Of a stretch of DNA of 64,000 bases, positions 53,425 to 64,000 are shown in pieces (position 1 is the stretch's first letter; every line of letters starts with the position of its first letter). A model generated the notes under the pieces. That model saw only the letters and a program-made list of their open reading frames with translations, was not told where the DNA came from and searched no databases. This stretch comes from an uncultured Cohaesibacter sp. (lineage in GTDB: Bacteria; Pseudomonadota; Alphaproteobacteria; Rhizobiales; Cohaesibacteraceae). The stretch spans positions 4,481,001-4,545,000 of the forward strand of contig NZ_OY762905.1 in NCBI RefSeq assembly GCF_963666525.1, in the 5' to 3' direction. The position numbers were made by a program, and so were the translations under genes.

Positions 53425-54006
53425 CTAGTGGGAAACCAGTCCGGCAAATCCCATGAAGGACAGGGACAGAAAACCGGCGGTGAGAAAGGCAATCGGCGTC
53501 CCCTTGAAGAGGGTGGGAACTTCCGCCAGCTTGATCCGTTCCCTGAGCCCCGAGAAGAGAACCAGAACCAGCGAGAAGCCGAGCGCCGAGCCCAGCCCGA
53601 ACAGCACGCTTTCATAGAAGGTGTGGTCTTCCTGAATGTTCAGCAGCGCCACGCCCAGCACGGCGCAGTTGGTCGTGATCAGTGGCAGGAAGATGCCAAG
53701 CCGCTGATGCAGCACCGGCGAGAATTTGCGGATCGCCATTTCCGTGAACTGGACAATGGCGGCGATGAGCAGAATGAGTGTCAGGATGCGCAGATACTGA
53801 AGCCCCAGCGGTTCGAGCAAAAACCGCTCGACCACCCAGGCGGCTGTGGCTGCAAGGGTCAGAACGAAGGTCGTGGCAAAGCCCATGCCCAGTGCCGCCG
53901 ACAGCTTGTTCGACACACCCATGAAGGGACATAGACCCAGAAACTTGACCAGCACCACATTGTTGACGAGGGCGGTCTCAAGAAGGATCAGCAGTGTATG
54001 TTCCAT
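53425..54006 (-). CDS. rnfA: Rnf complex subunit RnfA
   Basis: A 193-residue membrane subunit with six helices. [17 protein letters not shown] and [14 protein letters not shown] carry the two Cys that pair with RnfE. It is the first gene of rnfABCDGEH, preceded by its own sigma-54 promoter. In diazotrophs such an Rnf provides reduced ferredoxin or flavodoxin to nitrogenase by using the ion gradient. Confidence 0.94.
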
Positions 54007-54051: not shown

Positions 54052-54067
54052 TGCATCAACCGTGCCA
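54052..54067 (-). promoter_or_regulatory. Sigma-54 (-24/-12) promoter of rnfABCDGEH
   Basis: On the minus strand TGGCACGGTTGATGCA has GG and GC exactly 12 bases apart, matching the RpoN consensus. Transcription would begin near 54040, giving a leader of about 34 bases before rnfA. The shared UAS at 54203 lies about 170 bases upstream of that start. Confidence 0.85.
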
Positions 54068-54202: not shown

Positions 54203-54218
54203 TGTCGTAAATGCGACA
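54203..54218. promoter_or_regulatory. NifA upstream activating sequence
   Basis: TGT-N10-ACA (TGTCGTAAATGCGACA), with the arms extended to TTGTCG/CGACAA. It lies between the two divergent sigma-54 promoters and can serve both. It is about 75 bases upstream of the predicted start of the NifL-like transcript. Confidence 0.85.
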
Positions 54219-54259: not shown

Positions 54260-54275
54260 CGGCACGCAAGTTGCA
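54260..54275 (+). promoter_or_regulatory. Sigma-54 promoter of the NifL-like/nifA operon
   Basis: CGGCACGCAAGTTGCA has GG and GC 12 bases apart and the conserved GGCACG and TTGCA halves. The first transcribed base would be near 54287, so translation must start after that. Confidence 0.8.
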
Positions 54276-54299: not shown

Positions 54300-55157
54300 A
54301 TGAAGCGACACACCGCCATGACAGAACAGCTTGCCAAGCGCACCCATGCCCCGCTCTACACCGTAGAATGTGCATCGCACTGCCAACTGGTCGAGTTCCA
54401 GAAGCAGGAATACGAAAAGGCCCGCCTCAACGCGGTCCGGGCGCGGATGGCGGAATCGGAGATGGAGTATCGTACCCGCGAAGTGATCGACGGTGCGCTC
54501 TATCTGTTGCAAAAGCCGCTCAATGTCATGACAGCCCTGTCCAACAATCTGCAGCGCACGGCCTGTGGTCCGAAGTCATCGGAAACACCGGGCTGTCTAC
54601 CCATGGGTGGGGCACTGGACGAGGCGCTGGAGTTTGGCCACGAGGCTGCCCGCACTCTGCGTCTGTCGTTGCCGGAAGACAGAATGGCGGCGCACGTTCC
54701 CATCAACATCAACGAGGCAATAAGGGATTGTCTCATCATTTCTGCCGATCGCATCGATGCCAACGGTATCGAAGTGGATTGGCGAGCCAGTCCGGAACTG
54801 CCAATGATCTACAGTGATGAGATCACGATCCGCGTCATGCTCCGGATATTGCTCGATAATGCCATCAACGCCATAGGGGAGAATGGCGCTACCGCTCGTT
54901 CGGTTGGCGTCATATCGCGCGTTGGTGCCGACAGAATGGTTGAAGTCTGCATTCAGGATTCCGGTCCCGGTATCGACCGGGCCGCCCGAACCAAGGTCTT
55001 CGAGCCTTTCTACACTGCCTGGCAATCCAGCCCGCACCACGCCGGTTTGGGATTGGCCATAGCCCGGCAGATTGTGGCTGACTTGCATGGCGACATCGAA
55101 ATCCGCGAGAGCAACGTACGCGGATCCAACATATGCGTCAGTTTGCCAGCCTGTTAG
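54300..55157 (+). CDS. NifL-like C-terminal transmitter protein (no PAS domains)
   Basis: About 285 residues. The region REVIDGALYLLQKPLN (residues 61-75) corresponds to the degenerate H-box of gammaproteobacterial NifL and has no phospho-accepting His. An ATP-binding GHKL domain follows: LLDNAINAI (N box), DSGPGID, FEPFYTAW and GLGLAIARQIV. NifL binds and inhibits NifA; its two N-terminal PAS domains (redox FAD and signal relay) are absent here. The frame is open upstream to 54039, but the UAS and promoter lie inside that stretch, so ATG 54300 or 54318 should be the start. Ribosome sites are weak. It has eight Cys, including a C-x3-C at 24-28. nifA follows 24 bases later. Confidence 0.72.
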   Translation: MKRHTAMTEQLAKRTHAPLYTVECASHCQLVEFQKQEYEKARLNAVRARMAESEMEYRTREVIDGALYLLQKPLNVMTALSNNLQRTACGPKSSETPGCLPMGGALDEALEFGHEAARTLRLSLPEDRMAAHVPININEAIRDCLIISADRIDANGIEVDWRASPELPMIYSDEITIRVMLRILLDNAINAIGENGATARSVGVISRVGADRMVEVCIQDSGPGIDRAARTKVFEPFYTAWQSSPHHAGLGLAIARQIVADLHGDIEIRESNVRGSNICVSLPAC

Positions 55158-55181
55158 TTCCCCTACTAGATTGCGAGCATC

Positions 55182-56822
55182 ATGAGCATTCAGTGTCCAA
55201 CGACGTCGGATGAAGTTATCAAACACGATGAGGGCTTGTGCCCCAAGCCCGTTTTCTGTTCCTTTTATCGCCGCGAACTGGAAACGCTTTACAAGGTCAG
55301 CCAGTTGCTCGGCCGTTCGCTGGATCTGCACGACACAGCCCGAGAGGTTCTGCGTCTGCTGCACGAGGAAGGCCGACTGCTCTATGGCATGATCTGCCTG
55401 CTCGACAATGACAGCGGTCTGCTGCGGATCATCGACATTCATCAGGACGAAGCGACCTTCACAAAGAATGTCAGCTACATGCCAGGCGAGGGGATTGTCG
55501 GCGCGATCCTCAGCGAAAAGAAACTCATCGTGGTGCCGCGCATCGCCGAAGAACCGCGTTTTCTTGATCGTCTTGGCGTCTATGATCCGAACCGGCCTTT
55601 TATTGGCGCGCCAATCTTTCTGGGCTCCAACGAACCGGTGGGAGTCTTCGCTGCCCAGCCTTTCTTTGCCGACAAGTTTCTGGAAGACAATGCCAAGCTG
55701 ATGCAGATGATCGCCTCGTTGATCGGACAGGCCATTCTGCTGTCCAAGGCTGTTCAGGAAGAACAGGACAAGCTGCGCGAAGAACGCGACAGCCTGCGCC
55801 GTCGGGTCAAGCGCCAGCACGGCTTCGAGAATATCATTGGTGAAACCGATGCCATGCGGCTGGTGTTCGATCAGGTGCGCATGGTGGCGAAATGGAACAC
55901 CACCGTGCTGATCCGTGGCGAAAGCGGCACCGGCAAGGAGCTGATTGCCAACGCCATTCACTATAACTCGCCGCGTGCCACCGCGCCCTATCTCAAACTC
56001 AACTGCGCAGCCCTGCCAGACAATCTTCTGGAATCGGAACTGTTCGGCCATGAGAAAGGGGCTTTCACCGGTGCCGTTTCCCTGCGCAAGGGGCGCTTCG
56101 AGCAGGCCGACGGCGGCACACTGTTTCTCGATGAAATCGGTGAAATCACGCCCGCCTTCCAGTCCAAGCTGCTGCGGGTGCTGCAGGAAGGCGAGTTCGA
56201 GCGTGTCGGTGGCAACAAGACCCACAAGGTTGACGTGCGCATCATCGCAGCCACCAACAAGGATCTGGAAGCCGCAGTGGAAGCGGGTACTTTCAGAGAA
56301 GATCTCTACTATCGGCTCAATGTCATGGCCATCAACATGCCATCACTGCGCGAGCGAATGGACGATATACCCGAACTCGGTCGTTTCCTGATCGGCAAGA
56401 TCGGCCAGCAGCAGGGACGCACTCTCATCCTCAAGGACAGCGCAGTGCGCCTGCTCATGCGTCACAGCTGGCCCGGCAACGTGCGCGAGCTGGAAAACTG
56501 CCTCGAACGTGCCTCCGTCATGAGCCCGGACGGCGTGATCGACCGGGACGTGGTCTCCCTTTCCGGTCTGCCGGAAAAGACTCTTGTCGGTGTTCCGGCC
56601 CAACCCTTGCCGCCGATCCTCAAGATCCCGCAATTCGCAGCCGAAGAACCGGCTGAGGACAACGCCTGGCAGGATGAAACCCTCGACGAACGAGAGCGGG
56701 TGATCGCCGCGCTTGAAGAAGCCGGATGGGTGCAGGCAAAGGCGGCTCGGCTGCTCGACATGACGCCGCGCCAGATCGCATATCGCATCAAGATACTCGG
56801 CATCTCGGTCAGGCGCATCTGA
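55182..56822 (+). CDS. nifA: Nif-specific sigma-54-dependent activator NifA
   Basis: A 546-residue activator: GAF domain (about 30-190), AAA+ domain (about 215-450; Walker A GESGTGKE, GAFTGA loop ELFGHEKGAFTGAV, Walker B GGTLFLDEIGEI, R-finger region), linker (about 455-500) and C-terminal helix-turn-helix (ERERVIAALEEAGWVQAKAARLLDMTPRQIAYRIKI). The linker has no Cys, unlike oxygen-sensitive alphaproteobacterial NifA with Cys-x4-Cys. This is the form that needs NifL for control, in line with the NifL-like gene just upstream. It activates the -24/-12 promoters in this region. Confidence 0.95.
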   Translation: MSIQCPTTSDEVIKHDEGLCPKPVFCSFYRRELETLYKVSQLLGRSLDLHDTAREVLRLLHEEGRLLYGMICLLDNDSGLLRIIDIHQDEATFTKNVSYMPGEGIVGAILSEKKLIVVPRIAEEPRFLDRLGVYDPNRPFIGAPIFLGSNEPVGVFAAQPFFADKFLEDNAKLMQMIASLIGQAILLSKAVQEEQDKLREERDSLRRRVKRQHGFENIIGETDAMRLVFDQVRMVAKWNTTVLIRGESGTGKELIANAIHYNSPRATAPYLKLNCAALPDNLLESELFGHEKGAFTGAVSLRKGRFEQADGGTLFLDEIGEITPAFQSKLLRVLQEGEFERVGGNKTHKVDVRIIAATNKDLEAAVEAGTFREDLYYRLNVMAINMPSLRERMDDIPELGRFLIGKIGQQQGRTLILKDSAVRLLMRHSWPGNVRELENCLERASVMSPDGVIDRDVVSLSGLPEKTLVGVPAQPLPPILKIPQFAAEEPAEDNAWQDETLDERERVIAALEEAGWVQAKAARLLDMTPRQIAYRIKILGISVRRI

Positions 56823-57096: not shown

Positions 57097-58695
57097 ATGC
57101 TGGACGGAACAATCAAGGCCGAAGCATCAGCCGGATGCGCACAAGTTTCCTGCGGCAGCTCGAAGGATCACGTCGATCAGTTGCCCGATGCCATCCGGGA
57201 TCGCGTCAAGAACCATCCTTGCTATTCCGAAGAGGCGCATCACCACTATGCCCGCATGCATGTGGCTGTAGCCCCGGCCTGCAACATCCAGTGCAACTAT
57301 TGCAATCGAAAATATGACTGCGCCAACGAGAGCCGCCCCGGAGTGGTCTCCGAGCTTCTGACACCGGAGCAGGCCGTGCGCAAGACATTGGCAGTAGCAG
57401 CTTCCATCCCCCAGATGACCGTGCTCGGTGTTGCCGGTCCCGGCGACCCACTGGCCAATCCGGCTAGGACTTTCGAAACCTTCCGGATGTTGTCCGAGCA
57501 GGCACCCGACATCAAGCTCTGCGTCTCGACCAACGGCTTGTCGCTGCCAGACTGTGTTGACGAACTGATGCAATATAATGTCGACCATGTGACCCTCACC
57601 ATCAACGCCGTCGATCCTGAGATCGGTGCACAGATCTATCCGTGGATCTATTGGAATAACCGCCGCATGCGGGGCGTCAAGGCAGCGAAGATCCTCATCG
57701 AGCGCCAGCAGAAGGGGCTCGCAATGCTCATTGAGCGTGGTGTGCTGGTCAAGGTCAACTCTGTGCTCATTCCCGGTGTCAATGACGAACATCTCATGGA
57801 AGTCAGCCGCGTGATCAAGGCCAAGGGTGCTTTCCTGCACAATGTCATGCCGTTGATCACAGAGCCGGAACACGGCACCTATTACGGTGTCATGGGACAG
57901 CGTGCCCCGACCCAGCAGGAACTGACCACCCTTCAGGACGCATGTGGGGACATGAACATGATGCGCCACTGTCGCCAGTGTCGCGCCGACGCCGTCGGAT
58001 TGCTGGGTGAAGACCGGGGTGAGGAATTCACCCTCGCAAAGATAGACACCCTTGATGTGGACTACGCCACCGCAATGGAAACGCGCGCCAGAGTGCAGGC
58101 TGACATTGAAGCAAAGCGGGCACAACAGAAGCTGCGGCTTGAAAATCTCAAGGAGCAGATGAAAGCGGCCAATGGCAAGACCCTGTTCACGGTCAATGGT
58201 CTTGCACTGCAACCTCAGACAAGCCTGTCGCAACCTGTTTCTGCGATAGCTGCTGGACGGTTGCAGGAGACAGGCCTGCCGGCGGGCTTGCGATCGGTGC
58301 AGATGGCTGTTGCCAGCAACGGGCAGGGGTTGATCAACCAGCATTTCGGCTCGGCACGGGAATTCATGATCTATGAGGTCTCGCCAACGGGAGCCCGTCT
58401 GATCGGACATCGCAAGACGGCCCAGTATTGCACAGGCCCGGTTCATTGTGGCGATGGTGATGCGGCACTGCCCGAAACCATCGACATGCTCGAGGGCTGC
58501 GAAGTTGTGCTGTGCTCCAAGGTCGGCTTCAAACCGTGGGACCAGCTCGAGGCCGCCGGCATCATTCCCAATGGCGAACATGCGGACAAGCCGATCGTCC
58601 CAGCCCTGATGGCCGTTTATGCCGAACTGCATGCCTCGGGTGCACTGGACAGGAACCTGACCGCGCGTTCTGGTCAGCAGACCGCCAGCGCCTGA
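57097..58695 (+). CDS. nifB: FeMo-cofactor maturase NifB
   Basis: A 532-residue fusion of a radical SAM enzyme and a NifX-like domain. The SAM cluster motif CNIQCNYC is near residues 66-73, with further Cys at 80 and in CRQCRADAVG (near 291-294) that hold the K clusters. The NifX/NafY-like domain (AVASNGQGLINQHFGSAREFMIYEV) spans about residues 400-510. NifB makes NifB-co, the 8Fe core of the cofactor. It opens an operon with fdxN, a flavoprotein, two 2Fe-2S ferredoxins and nifQ. Confidence 0.96.
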   Translation: MLDGTIKAEASAGCAQVSCGSSKDHVDQLPDAIRDRVKNHPCYSEEAHHHYARMHVAVAPACNIQCNYCNRKYDCANESRPGVVSELLTPEQAVRKTLAVAASIPQMTVLGVAGPGDPLANPARTFETFRMLSEQAPDIKLCVSTNGLSLPDCVDELMQYNVDHVTLTINAVDPEIGAQIYPWIYWNNRRMRGVKAAKILIERQQKGLAMLIERGVLVKVNSVLIPGVNDEHLMEVSRVIKAKGAFLHNVMPLITEPEHGTYYGVMGQRAPTQQELTTLQDACGDMNMMRHCRQCRADAVGLLGEDRGEEFTLAKIDTLDVDYATAMETRARVQADIEAKRAQQKLRLENLKEQMKAANGKTLFTVNGLALQPQTSLSQPVSAIAAGRLQETGLPAGLRSVQMAVASNGQGLINQHFGSAREFMIYEVSPTGARLIGHRKTAQYCTGPVHCGDGDAALPETIDMLEGCEVVLCSKVGFKPWDQLEAAGIIPNGEHADKPIVPALMAVYAELHASGALDRNLTARSGQQTASA

Positions 58696-58991: not shown

Positions 58992-60260
58992 ATGACTGCG
59001 CAGCTCGCGTCCAAACCGGCAGAAGAAATTGCCCCTGGAGTCCACTGGATCGGCGCGTTCGATCCGGATCTGCGCACCTTTGATCTGATCCTGAAGACGG
59101 CGAACGGCACAACCTACAACGCCTATCTGGTCGAAGGGGCTGAGGGTGTCGCCGTCATCGACACGGTGAAAGAGGAATTCTCGGACCAGTTTTTTGCTCG
59201 ATTGGAGGCGGTAACCAGTTATGACCGGATCAGGGCCGTCGTCCTCAATCACCTCGAGCAGGACCACGCCGGAGCCCTGCCGGAGCTGATGCGCCGAGCG
59301 CCACAGGCGCATATCTATGTTTCCCAGCGTGGTCTCAAACTGCTGCAGGCCACCCTCAAGGATGCGCTCGATACCTATGCCTTTACCCTGACCGATGATG
59401 GGGATCGGCTCGATCTCGGCGGACGGACGCTCAGCTTCGTTCACACGCCCTATCTGCACTGGCCAGAGACAAAATGTACCTTTCTGGTTGAAGATCGGAT
59501 CCTCTTTTCCTGCGATGTGTTCGGCGCCCATTTTTGCGACGGGCGGTTCTACAATGATCTGGTCGGCGATTTCCGCTTTTCCTTCGAATATTATTTCAAG
59601 CACATCATGCGCCCGTTCAAGAAATGGGTGCTGTCCGCCATGGATAAGCTCGAGCCGCTTGCGCCGCTGATGATCGCACCTTCACATGGCCCGATCCTGC
59701 GCCATCGGCCGATGGATTACATCAGGAGCTATCGGCTGCTCTCCGGCTCGCACTTGCCCAACGAGGTTGCCGGCAAGGACAAGAGCCTGCTGATCTTCTA
59801 CATGAGCGCCTACGGCGCCACGGCCGACATGGCCCGGTCCGTCTACGAAGGCGCAAGTGCCGTCGAAGGGGTGCGCGTTTCCCTCTATGACCTTCAGGGC
59901 GGAGAAGTGGACCCCTTCGTCGATCTCATCGAAGAGGCTGATGGCCTGATCTTCGGCTCGCCTACCATCAACGGCGATGCGGTCAAACCCATCTGGGACC
60001 TGCTTGCCTCGCTAGTCGCCATCGAGACCCGCGGCAAGGTCGGGGCCGCCTTTGGTTCCTATGGCTGGTCTGGCGAAGCCGTGCCGATGATCGAGGATCG
60101 GCTGCGTGGCCTCAAGATGCGCGTTCCGGAAAAGGGCAAGCGCATCAAGTTTCACCCCACAGAACAGGAGCTGGAAGACTGCCGCGACTATGGCCAGTCG
60201 ATTGCCGAGCTGCTGGCTGGCAAGGCAAAGCCGAAAGTCATCGACTTTGCTTCACTCTGA
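58992..60260 (+). CDS. A-type flavoprotein (FprA/ROO-like diiron flavo-oxidase)
   Basis: A 422-residue protein with an MBL-fold diiron domain and a C-terminal flavodoxin domain. Diiron ligands appear intact in NHLEQDHAG, YLHWPET, SCDVFGAHFCD and APSHGP. The flavodoxin part starts near 265 (LLIFYMSAYGATADMARSV). Such proteins reduce O2 to water or NO to N2O. In a nif operon it may protect nitrogenase from oxygen or act with the neighbouring ferredoxins. Starts four bases after the fdxN stop. Confidence 0.9.
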   Translation: MTAQLASKPAEEIAPGVHWIGAFDPDLRTFDLILKTANGTTYNAYLVEGAEGVAVIDTVKEEFSDQFFARLEAVTSYDRIRAVVLNHLEQDHAGALPELMRRAPQAHIYVSQRGLKLLQATLKDALDTYAFTLTDDGDRLDLGGRTLSFVHTPYLHWPETKCTFLVEDRILFSCDVFGAHFCDGRFYNDLVGDFRFSFEYYFKHIMRPFKKWVLSAMDKLEPLAPLMIAPSHGPILRHRPMDYIRSYRLLSGSHLPNEVAGKDKSLLIFYMSAYGATADMARSVYEGASAVEGVRVSLYDLQGGEVDPFVDLIEEADGLIFGSPTINGDAVKPIWDLLASLVAIETRGKVGAAFGSYGWSGEAVPMIEDRLRGLKMRVPEKGKRIKFHPTEQELEDCRDYGQSIAELLAGKAKPKVIDFASL

Positions 60261-61630: not shown

Positions 61631-61646
61631 CCAGTTTGGCTTTTCT
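61629..61646 (+). terminator. Short terminator after nifQ
   Basis: AGCCA-GTT-TGGCT followed by TTTCTT, overlapping the nifQ stop codon. The stem is only five base pairs, so the call is moderate. Confidence 0.5.
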
Positions 61647-62107
61647 TAGGGGGCTGTGGGAGAAGGAGACGGATCCGCAATGATGTCCGTTGCCGTATCG
61701 GCGAGGGAAATTTCAAATCCGGTCGCTTTCAGATAGGATGCAAGCGCATTGTCCATCATCACAGCATGAACATCGAACCACCGCGGCAAATCCTCGACAA
61801 AAGCCCGGCCAAAGGCGATCTTGCCAGCCTGAACCTTTTCGTTGATGTAGCTCATCTGCTTGAGGACTCTTGCGTGCTCGTGCCGGTGTTCTTCACATCC
61901 GTTGAAGCCGCTTTCCTCCATGATTCTCTCTTCGATCGCAAAATGCTCTTGCGTATGATCCAGCAACTGGATGAAAAGTGATTTGAAAATGGAAGGGTCG
62001 AGGGTCTCCCCCAACCGGTTTACGATGAGCGTGAAGCCCTGATGGATATCATCCATCTCCTCGACGCCCACAAGATGCTTGCCTTCGTCCCACTCGATTA
62101 ATGCCAT
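61646..62107 (-). CDS. Bacteriohemerythrin
   Basis: A 153-residue four-helix diiron oxygen-binding protein. The ligands are in the expected order: DDIHQGF, HTQEHFAIEERIM (H-x3-E type), HRHEHARVL and FDVHAVMMDNAL. Single-domain bacteriohemerythrins bind O2 and may carry it or scavenge it. Lying next to nif genes, it may shield nitrogenase or signal oxygen. ATG 62107 follows GGGGA; ATG 62122 is an alternative. It follows the SIR2-like gene by 33 bases and is probably in one operon with it. Confidence 0.92.
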   Translation of the reverse strand: MALIEWDEGKHLVGVEEMDDIHQGFTLIVNRLGETLDPSIFKSLFIQLLDHTQEHFAIEERIMEESGFNGCEEHRHEHARVLKQMSYINEKVQAGKIAFGRAFVEDLPRWFDVHAVMMDNALASYLKATGFEISLADTATDIIADPSPSPTAP

Positions 62108-62140
62108 ATTGTGTCCCCACACACTTTGGAATTACTATAT

Positions 62141-63004
62141 CTATACCACAGAGTGAATAGATACGGGAATACCCGCTGCTTCAAGAAAGTCGGCAATATC
62201 CAATTCCATGATTTCAATTGCCTTTTTCTTGCAATAGCGGCGTTCTTTGTCTGTAGGTTCCTTGATCAACGCCCAGCCGGCGGACTCATTCGCGCCAAAG
62301 GTGATGTCCGACATCACCATCCGTTCGGTATCGCGTGTGAAGCGCATTCCCAGAAACAGATACTGCTTTCCCTGTCTGTAGCTCTTGAGGAAGGGCGGCA
62401 CACCGAACCCGCCCATCAGTTCGGTGAGATAGTCGACAAAGTCGGCGTCCGAGGCGATGTAGGTCGGCTGCGGCTCTGGCGACCCAAGCGGCTTGAACAG
62501 GATCGGCAGATCTGATGTGAGTGCCTCTGGTTCTATCGGCTGATAGGTCTTGCCGTCATGGTGGTGAATGATGAAGCGATTGTTCGTCCCGCCGATCCGG
62601 GCGATGCCGCGCACCAGATAGTGGGGCTTGTCGGCAAAGCCCTGTTGCAGCTGCAGGTCCCGGTTGATGTCGATGACATAAGGCGGCGCGCAATCCCTGA
62701 TCCAGTCATGCAGGGCAGCCCGTGTCCATTGCTGCTGCTGGTAGAGCTGGGTGAGGAATTGTTCGATGAAACGGCGACCGCGCTTGAGTTCCAGGTTCAT
62801 CGCTGCTCGGGAGAATTCATACATCAGCTTTGGTGCCATGGGGCGGCCCTTGTTCATGGCAAGGATCAGGCTGTCGCTGCTCGCAGGCATAGGCTCGCCT
62901 GTTGTGTTGTTGGTCACATCGAACAGTGCTCCGGGGCCAAGATAGGGGATGACGTCGCCGCTGCCGACTTTTCTCACGATCTCATCTAAGAGTGCCTTGG
63001 TCAT
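62141..63004 (-). CDS. SIR2-like domain protein divergent from nifH
   Basis: A 287-residue protein that resembles the SIR2_2 family. GSGDVIPYLGPGAL stands for the NAD loop, LPILFKPLGSPEPQPTYIASDADFVDYLTELMGGFG for the family core, and YLFLGMRFTRDTERMVMSDI for the second half. In SIR2_2 proteins the core usually reads K-L-H-G; here it reads K-P-L-G, so the catalytic His seems lost. The function is unknown. It faces nifH across a region with two NifA sites, so co-regulation with nitrogen fixation is likely. Confidence 0.68.
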   Translation of the reverse strand: MTKALLDEIVRKVGSGDVIPYLGPGALFDVTNNTTGEPMPASSDSLILAMNKGRPMAPKLMYEFSRAAMNLELKRGRRFIEQFLTQLYQQQQWTRAALHDWIRDCAPPYVIDINRDLQLQQGFADKPHYLVRGIARIGGTNNRFIIHHHDGKTYQPIEPEALTSDLPILFKPLGSPEPQPTYIASDADFVDYLTELMGGFGVPPFLKSYRQGKQYLFLGMRFTRDTERMVMSDITFGANESAGWALIKEPTDKERRYCKKKAIEIMELDIADFLEAAGIPVSIHSVV

Positions 63005-63127
63005 GACTGTGCCTGCCATTCTGTTGTTGGTGCAATGTCTGGTTCCTTAAGACAAGCAAGAAGCAAACCAAGTCATGAAATTCATTTAAAACATTGAAAT
63101 TGATTAGATAATTGAAGTTTTGAGGAG

Positions 63128-63143
63128 TGTCGTGTTTACGACA
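63128..63143. promoter_or_regulatory. NifA upstream activating sequence 1
   Basis: TGTCGTGTTTACGACA fits TGT-N10-ACA. It lies about 245 bases before the nifH start of transcription but only about 100 before the likely start of the divergent SIR2-like gene. Confidence 0.85.
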
Positions 63144-63238: not shown

Positions 63239-63254
63239 TGTCGCCTATACGACA
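63239..63254. promoter_or_regulatory. NifA upstream activating sequence 2
   Basis: TGTCGCCTATACGACA fits TGT-N10-ACA, about 130 bases upstream of the predicted nifH transcription start, the usual distance. Confidence 0.9.

Positions 63255-63337: not shown

Positions 63338-64000
<663 letters not shown>

Follow-up and report, generated by a model that had tools for sequence, protein, structure and literature searches.

A NifL without PAS domains precedes nifA in Cohaesibacter

NifL has been described as integrating oxygen, nitrogen and energy signals. The locus described here lies in a stretch of 64,000 nucleotides (hereafter the window; C1:4481001-4545000) from the one-contig genome (5.18 Mb) of an uncultured Cohaesibacter sp. 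In this window, the gene before nifA encodes the transmitter half of NifL alone, i.e., the H domain and the GHKL ATPase domain, and the PAS half is absent. With reasonable but not high confidence, we favor the reading that the short NifL would serve as an anti-activator responsive to nitrogen, energy and carbon status, that oxygen control lies elsewhere, and that the PAS domains were probably lost once, in a common ancestor of Cohaesibacter and the lineage that includes the metagenome-assembled genome (MAG) Hyphomicrobiales BM303.

A NifL transmitter half in front of nifA

The two genes in question are:

54318..55157, forward strand: nifL' (PAS-less NifL), 279 amino acids; N-terminal stub with E-C-A-x-x-C-Q-L, signalling helix/H domain, GHKL ATPase domain
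55182..56822, forward strand: nifA, 546 amino acids; GAF, AAA+ and Fis-type helix-turn-helix (HTH) domains; N-terminal Cys20-x5-Cys26; no Cys-x4-Cys linker

The translated nifL' reading frame, immediately upstream of nifA, matched the NifL equivalog model TIGR02938 over model positions 250-492 of 494 only (E 6e-54, 183 bits), and the runner-up NCBIfam model scored 82 bits. The score falls below the whole-protein cut-off of 242.45 bits because that cut-off was made for the entire protein, of which only half is present here. Pfam matched HATPase_c and listed no PAS family for the short protein. Its top relative by sequence in the PDB was chain A of entry 9qq6 (E 5e-37), and NifA itself best matched chain C of 9qq6 (E 2e-184). 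We take 9qq6 to be the NifL-NifA complex of A. vinelandii, since residue 356 of chain C, as we count it, is Glu, as given for that organism in PMC8219145 (here and below, papers are cited by PubMed Central number).

The H-box reads LYLLQ(K/A)PLN in all 13 PAS-less proteins of this kind that we collected; it contains no His, and the short NifL thus lacks the phosphorylatable residue of a true histidine kinase. Nine GHKL residues (187, 220, 222, 224, 234, 236, 237, 249 and 251), assigned by us to the N, G1, F and G2 boxes, were checked: all 13 PAS-less proteins retain every one of them, and each is found in 24 or 25 of the 25 full-length NifLs. Compared with A. vinelandii NifL (9qq6 chain A) and known NifL-NifA systems, the short protein is alike in its H and GHKL domains and in the position of its gene directly before nifA. 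It differs by lacking PAS1, which carries flavin adenine dinucleotide (FAD), and PAS2, by a Leu at the place of R306, and by an N-terminal stub with a Cys pair. An earlier note, made from the letters of this DNA alone, had described the gene as encoding only a NifL-like degenerate H-box and ATPase domain. The profile matches bear this out, and together with the NifL tree described below, in which the protein groups with full-length NifL, they speak against membership of an unrelated kinase family.

The length of 285 residues given in that note needs revision. The likely start is Met7 of the 285-residue reading (base 54318), and the later start is preferred because Met7 is invariant in 12 of 12 members of the genus and the near-identical locus L044 has Thr at the first Met (residue numbers below follow the 285-residue reading). 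As supporting evidence only, an AlphaFold model of modest quality (mean pLDDT confidence 64.9, pTM score 0.57, seven sequences) predicted a helix at residues 20-87, another at 102-119 and then an alpha/beta part.

The surroundings of nifL' provided a second line of evidence, for which the following features are needed:

53425..54006, reverse strand: rnfA (we take this name as given), first of the divergent rnf genes; 8 of 10 full-length loci have a homologue ahead of nifL
54052..54067, reverse strand: sigma-54-like site TGGCACGGTTGATGCA towards rnfA; one mismatch
54203..54218, forward strand: NifA-type upstream activator site TGT-N10-ACA; similar site in 12/12 Cohaesibacter loci
54260..54275, forward strand: sigma-54-like -24/-12 site CGGCACGCAAGTTGCA for nifLA; one mismatch, similar site in 12/12 Cohaesibacter loci
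57097..58695, forward strand: nifB, Radical SAM and Nitro_FeMo-Co domains; next gene after nifA

The order rnfA, nifL', nifA, nifB was found in the window and in all 11 further Cohaesibacter loci, and the short NifL gene stands directly before nifA in these 12 loci and in BM303. Among the ten full-length loci fetched, nifB follows nifA in six (some stretches end early). The distance between the start of rnfA and the residue aligned with Lys35 of the short NifL is 385-421 nt in the 12 Cohaesibacter loci (396 in the window), as against 1042-1228 nt to the same residue in all eight full-length loci that could be measured (rnfA was not found in L131 and L136, and the BM303 contig begins just before the gene). 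The gap is thus about 0.6-0.85 kb shorter than in otherwise similar full-length loci. With the PAS portions of four full-length NifLs as queries, tblastn recovered no PAS remnant in the window or in nine related or neighbouring loci (best E 0.34). This agrees with the earlier observation that the space before nifL' leaves no room for PAS domains.

That space was also said to hold two sigma-54 promoters and an upstream activator site, and both sigma-54 sites were recovered along with TGT-N10-ACA, which is given as an activator site in PMC4999443. The activator site and the sigma-54 site before nifL are 57-58 nt apart in 11 Cohaesibacter loci and 67 nt apart in L046, as scanned with a loosened pattern that admits the first base of the window's own site. 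Counts of the two patterns in the window are no rarer than chance (11 and 14 of 100 shuffles reach them), and the weight of these sites rests on their position and conservation. The sigma-54 consensus, like those of the FNR and NtrC sites considered below, is the one we assume. As both elements precede the start codon in 12 of 12 loci, transcription probably begins near nifL'.

Distribution and origin of the short NifL

Twelve of 18 genomes of the genus carry nifH; the same 12 carry a NifL-type NifA, and all 12 have a PAS-less NifL. The other six have neither nifH nor a NifL-type NifA (among these, one genome has a completeness of 64% and one a contamination of 8%). The short NifLs of the genus are 58-99% identical to that of the window, with Cohaesibacter haloalkalitolerans JC131 at 99% and C. 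marisflavi at 87%. Across 297 genomes of the order, 12 matches to the NifL model exceeded 170 bits (the next reached 127), namely eight from Cohaesibacter and those of BM303 (G014), G060, G097 and G086. The last three have a full-length NifL (model positions 1-490 to 1-492 of 494). BM303, a member of another family, encodes a PAS-less NifL too, with a stop codon in frame directly upstream of the short reading frame; its contig begins there, hiding anything further upstream.

The 13 PAS-less NifLs form one clade in a NifL tree of 22 rows (ultrafast bootstrap 100, Shimodaira-Hasegawa-like approximate likelihood ratio test (SH-aLRT) 98). This clade adjoins the three full-length NifLs of the order (89/81), and a NifA tree built by a quick method is consistent with it (SH-aLRT 99). 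Judged from these sequences, a single loss of the PAS domains is the simplest reading of the clade; transfer between the Cohaesibacter family and that of BM303 is a conceivable alternative to shared loss. The three full-length proteins on the closest branch keep both PAS domains, unlike the short NifL of Cohaesibacter, and their NifA partners also have Cys20-x5-Cys26 and a Cys-less linker.

Wider surveys placed no PAS-less NifL outside this clade. None was seen in 398 phylum-wide genomes, where seven proteins over the NifL cut-off all matched nearly the whole model, nor in 274 genomes of the class of G649, where 16 of 16 over the cut-off did so; in 385 class-wide genomes, only the window's own was recovered. 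These three surveys scored at most three to five candidates per genome at E <= 1e-40 or 1e-42, so that more diverged short forms could escape. At E <= 1e-25, 3 of 14 well-known genomes used as controls also gave a match to the NifL model, always below the cut-off, and weak hits to this model consequently mean little. Viral contigs gave 12 weak matches to the short NifL (24-35% identity), and a single plasmid record matched, through a Methylococcus NifL at 33%.

Pairwise ratios of nonsynonymous to synonymous substitution (dN/dS) for nifL' were 0.022-0.185 in 8 of 11 pairs, with silent sites saturated and the ratio unmeasurable in the other three; in six of the eight measurable pairs dS exceeds 1, which makes these values rough. 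For nifA, the 11 pairs gave 0.022-0.172.

NifA and the conserved cysteines

The window NifA scored 667 bits against TIGR01817 (cut-off 529). Its last Cys is Cys440, in ELENC, and there is none from there to the C-terminus, which agrees with the earlier statement that the linker between the AAA+ and HTH domains has no Cys; no misplaced Cys pair was found in the linker either. A Cys-x4-Cys motif between these domains occurs in 0 of 23 NifL-type NifAs as against 36 of 36 others examined in the order. Of 52 order genomes with a NifA match, 12 have the NifL type, and 36 of the other 40 entered this count (G034 and G174 fell below the cut-off; G190 and G209 are partial). The Cys-type NifAs of the order form a separate branch of the NifA tree (SH-aLRT 100). 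By contrast, the window NifA has no Cys-x4-Cys and groups with NifL-partnered NifAs, as expected of the NifL-dependent type. Seven of the NifL-type NifAs come from outside the class, G497 being so classed by the NifL-model survey alone, as BLAST with the short protein missed its NifL. A Cys-less linker is thus the normal state of a NifL-type NifA and not an additional oddity. The earlier note had concluded that this pair has neither sensor in the usual form. This stands insofar as a PAS-less NifL is found beside a NifA without Cys-x4-Cys; the linker itself is no departure from the type. Glu356 of A. vinelandii NifA was considered as a mark of NifL control and rejected, the equivalent Glu363 being present in all 59 NifAs compared, whichever their type.

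Other residues of the pair are conserved in ways that bear on sensing, including two sets of codons in nifL':

54369..54383, forward strand: Cys24-Ala-x-x-Cys28 codons; head of the predicted helix 20-87, where AlphaFold confidence is low
54504..54506, forward strand: Leu69 codon; place of A. vinelandii NifL R306, as mapped through the 9qq6 alignment

In the short NifL, all 12 Cohaesibacter proteins share E23-C24-A25 and C28-Q29-L30, within a stretch (residues 7-32) where only 8 of 26 positions are invariant. The BM303 protein has neither Cys. The full-length proteins of G060 and G097 have a Cys in their last PAS2 strand that lines up with Cys28. The aligner also pairs Cys24 with a PAS2 Cys common to nine of nine full-length proteins, across a long gap, and we do not trust that alignment. 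In NifA, Cys20 and Cys26 (window 55239-55259) lie before the GAF domain. Both are present in all 16 NifL-type NifAs of the order, and none of the seven taken from other classes has them; the motif is CPxPxxC in 15 and CLHPVYC in one. It is a possible redox or metal site, and the conserved pairs of both proteins are candidate redox sites.

At the place of R306, all 13 PAS-less proteins have Leu; of the 25 full-length NifLs, 22 have Gln and three have Lys. The exchange R306C renders A. vinelandii NifL constitutively inhibitory (PMC9866876). A residue that seems to be needed to undo inhibition in the long NifL thus appears to have changed alongside the loss of the sensors, though within one clade.

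Probable control of NifA without a flavin sensor

Published work on NifL suggests how the remaining half might act. By cryo-electron microscopy, the NifA AAA+ domain contacts the GHKL/DHp part of NifL (PMC12998174). NifL(147-519) can still enter the complex, though without sensing redox (PMC9866876), and NifL(143-519) with a deletion of N147-L151 keeps the nitrogen response and loses that to oxygen (PMC3466315). The GHKL domain is given as the site of ADP binding and probably of GlnK binding, and the GAF domain of NifA as the sensor of 2-oxoglutarate (PMC8219145). On the strength of these deletions and domain assignments, we read the short NifL as a brake without a flavin oxygen sensor of its own. 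In outline, the two sensory PAS domains would have been deleted, probably once, in the ancestor shared by Cohaesibacter and the BM303 lineage, and the remaining half kept as a small anti-activator. Its H and GHKL domains would still hold NifA through the AAA+ domain. ADP and unmodified PII protein would tighten this hold when energy is low or nitrogen plentiful, and 2-oxoglutarate bound to the NifA GAF domain, together with PII modification, would release it; two PII proteins are encoded in the genome. NifA probably activates its own nifLA operon. The earlier note had held that oxygen and nitrogen signals must come by another route, perhaps ADP, GlnK or the Cys of the short protein. For ADP and GlnK this requires rewording, as they are normal inputs of the retained half and not a replacement oxygen sensor.

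With flavin-based sensing by NifL presumably gone, oxygen sensing probably relies on another mechanism or takes place elsewhere in the cell. Control could be exerted upstream of or outside the NifL-NifA pair, for example by FixL-FixJ-FixK-like genes of the same genome, a route that the earlier note left unconsidered. A FixL-like PAS kinase, in which no membrane part was seen, a FixJ-like regulator and a FixK-like Crp protein are encoded in a row (L183:613-1941, L171:2-1764; C1 ~3403100-3406320).

Several observations weigh against this interpretation. The published deletion constructs retain PAS2, which the short NifL does not, and inhibition of NifA by the short protein is deduced from the genes and from those constructs. 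The FixL-, FixJ- and FixK-like proteins cover about 75% or more of their NCBIfam model lengths, and all score below the cut-offs (the FixJ-like reading is truncated at the start of its stretch). Between 54007 and 54317, we found neither an FNR/FixK-like site (<=2 mismatches) nor an NtrC-like site (<=1 mismatch), which makes a link from FixLJ-FixK to nifLA tentative. The saturation that blurs the dN/dS values counts here as well, as does the Leu at the place of R306 in all 13 PAS-less NifLs, with which a permanently inhibiting form is possible.

Among the alternatives, the most substantial is continued sensing of oxygen or redox by the pair itself, by way of Cys24-x3-Cys28 of NifL, Cys20-x5-Cys26 of NifA, or both. 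The invariance of the NifL pair in a poorly conserved stretch across the genus, and of the NifA pair across the NifL-type NifAs of the order, would fit this reading, and the former lends some sequence support to the earlier suggestion of the short protein's Cys as a sensor. However, the NifL pair is absent from the PAS-less protein of BM303 outside the genus, Cys28 may simply be inherited from the last PAS2 strand, and the NifA pair also stands beside full-length NifL in 3 of 3 order members and so did not arise to replace the PAS domains. We therefore regard intrinsic Cys-based sensing as unlikely, while keeping it under consideration. In a variant that we hold to be rather unlikely, the oxygen sensor moved: NifA would have gained its Cys-x5-Cys redox site while the flavin PAS domain of NifL was still present; the PAS half, thereby dispensable, would then have been deleted, leaving NifL responsive to nitrogen and energy only, in Cohaesibacter with a Cys-x3-Cys of its own. 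The Leu at the place of R306 raises a different prospect, that the short NifL is locked in its inhibitory form and sets a fixed threshold for 2-oxoglutarate-loaded NifA to overcome, with no input from GlnK. Since this Leu occurs in one clade it may reflect a single event, its effect is argued by analogy with R306C, and the GHKL domain, the likely GlnK site (PMC8219145), is kept; we consider such locking improbable.

A separate PAS protein could also act in trans as the lost N-terminal half, a finding that the earlier note had named as one that would refute its reading. A second NifL-model hit does exist in the genome (positions 13-165, E 2e-29), in an open frame of 980 amino acids (L137:362-3301, minus strand), and the genome-wide look was thin, with 5 of 48 candidates scored at E <= 1e-25. 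The 980-residue protein, however, reads as PAS-PAS-GGDEF-EAL with an N-terminal membrane segment, its domains being read from sequence. A PAS-part hit also occurs in G256, which has neither nifH nor a NifL-type NifA (not necessarily the same gene), and none appeared at this threshold in the nif-bearing G119. The tblastn search described above likewise found no PAS half in the window and nine stretches, a partner being less well excluded genome-wide, and we give a split NifL little credence. That the short NifL is a decaying, functionless remnant, kept by its position before nifA only, would agree with the loss of half the protein. Its open frame, the nucleotide-binding boxes kept in 13 of 13 proteins and the low dN/dS across proteins as little as 58% identical to that of the window argue against decay, which we judge very improbable. 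The interpretation favored here thus remains that of a nitrogen-, energy- and carbon-responsive anti-activator.

Its novel part is the missing PAS half only, control of NifA by NifL in Alphaproteobacteria being already in print. A NifL-regulated NifA is published for Martelella endophytica (PMC8219145), and a general statement on the class is made in PMC9866876. PMC4999443, citing Boyd et al. 2015, gives NifL as absent in Alphaproteobacteria, a claim that the present finding qualifies. The nitrogenase of Cohaesibacter and Martelella clusters with Gammaproteobacteria (PMC8399215), which would fit an acquired nif block. The laboratory deletions NifL(147-519) and NifL(143-519) lack PAS1 as the short NifL does, but they are man-made and keep PAS2, which is gone in Cohaesibacter too. 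In the literature searched, which lacks the bulk of subscription journals, we found no description of a natural PAS-less NifL; nif regulation in Cohaesibacter was the subject of none of the papers listed. A natural NifL without its oxygen half in 12 of 12 nifH-bearing genomes of the genus would show that the nitrogen and energy branch is selected on its own. As a minimal module of 279 amino acids it could serve structural work and the uncoupling of nitrogen and oxygen controls, and it allows the site of oxygen sensing in these diazotrophs to be tested directly.

Further features were noted in the remainder of the nif region:

58992-60260: flavodiiron-type protein (ODP and flavodoxin domains), two genes after nifB
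61646-62122, reverse strand: hemerythrin-domain gene adjoining nifQ
62141-63019, reverse strand: protein of 292 amino acids between the hemerythrin gene and nifH
63128-63143, 63239-63254 and 63354-63369: two TGT-N10-ACA sites and one sigma-54-like site before nifH

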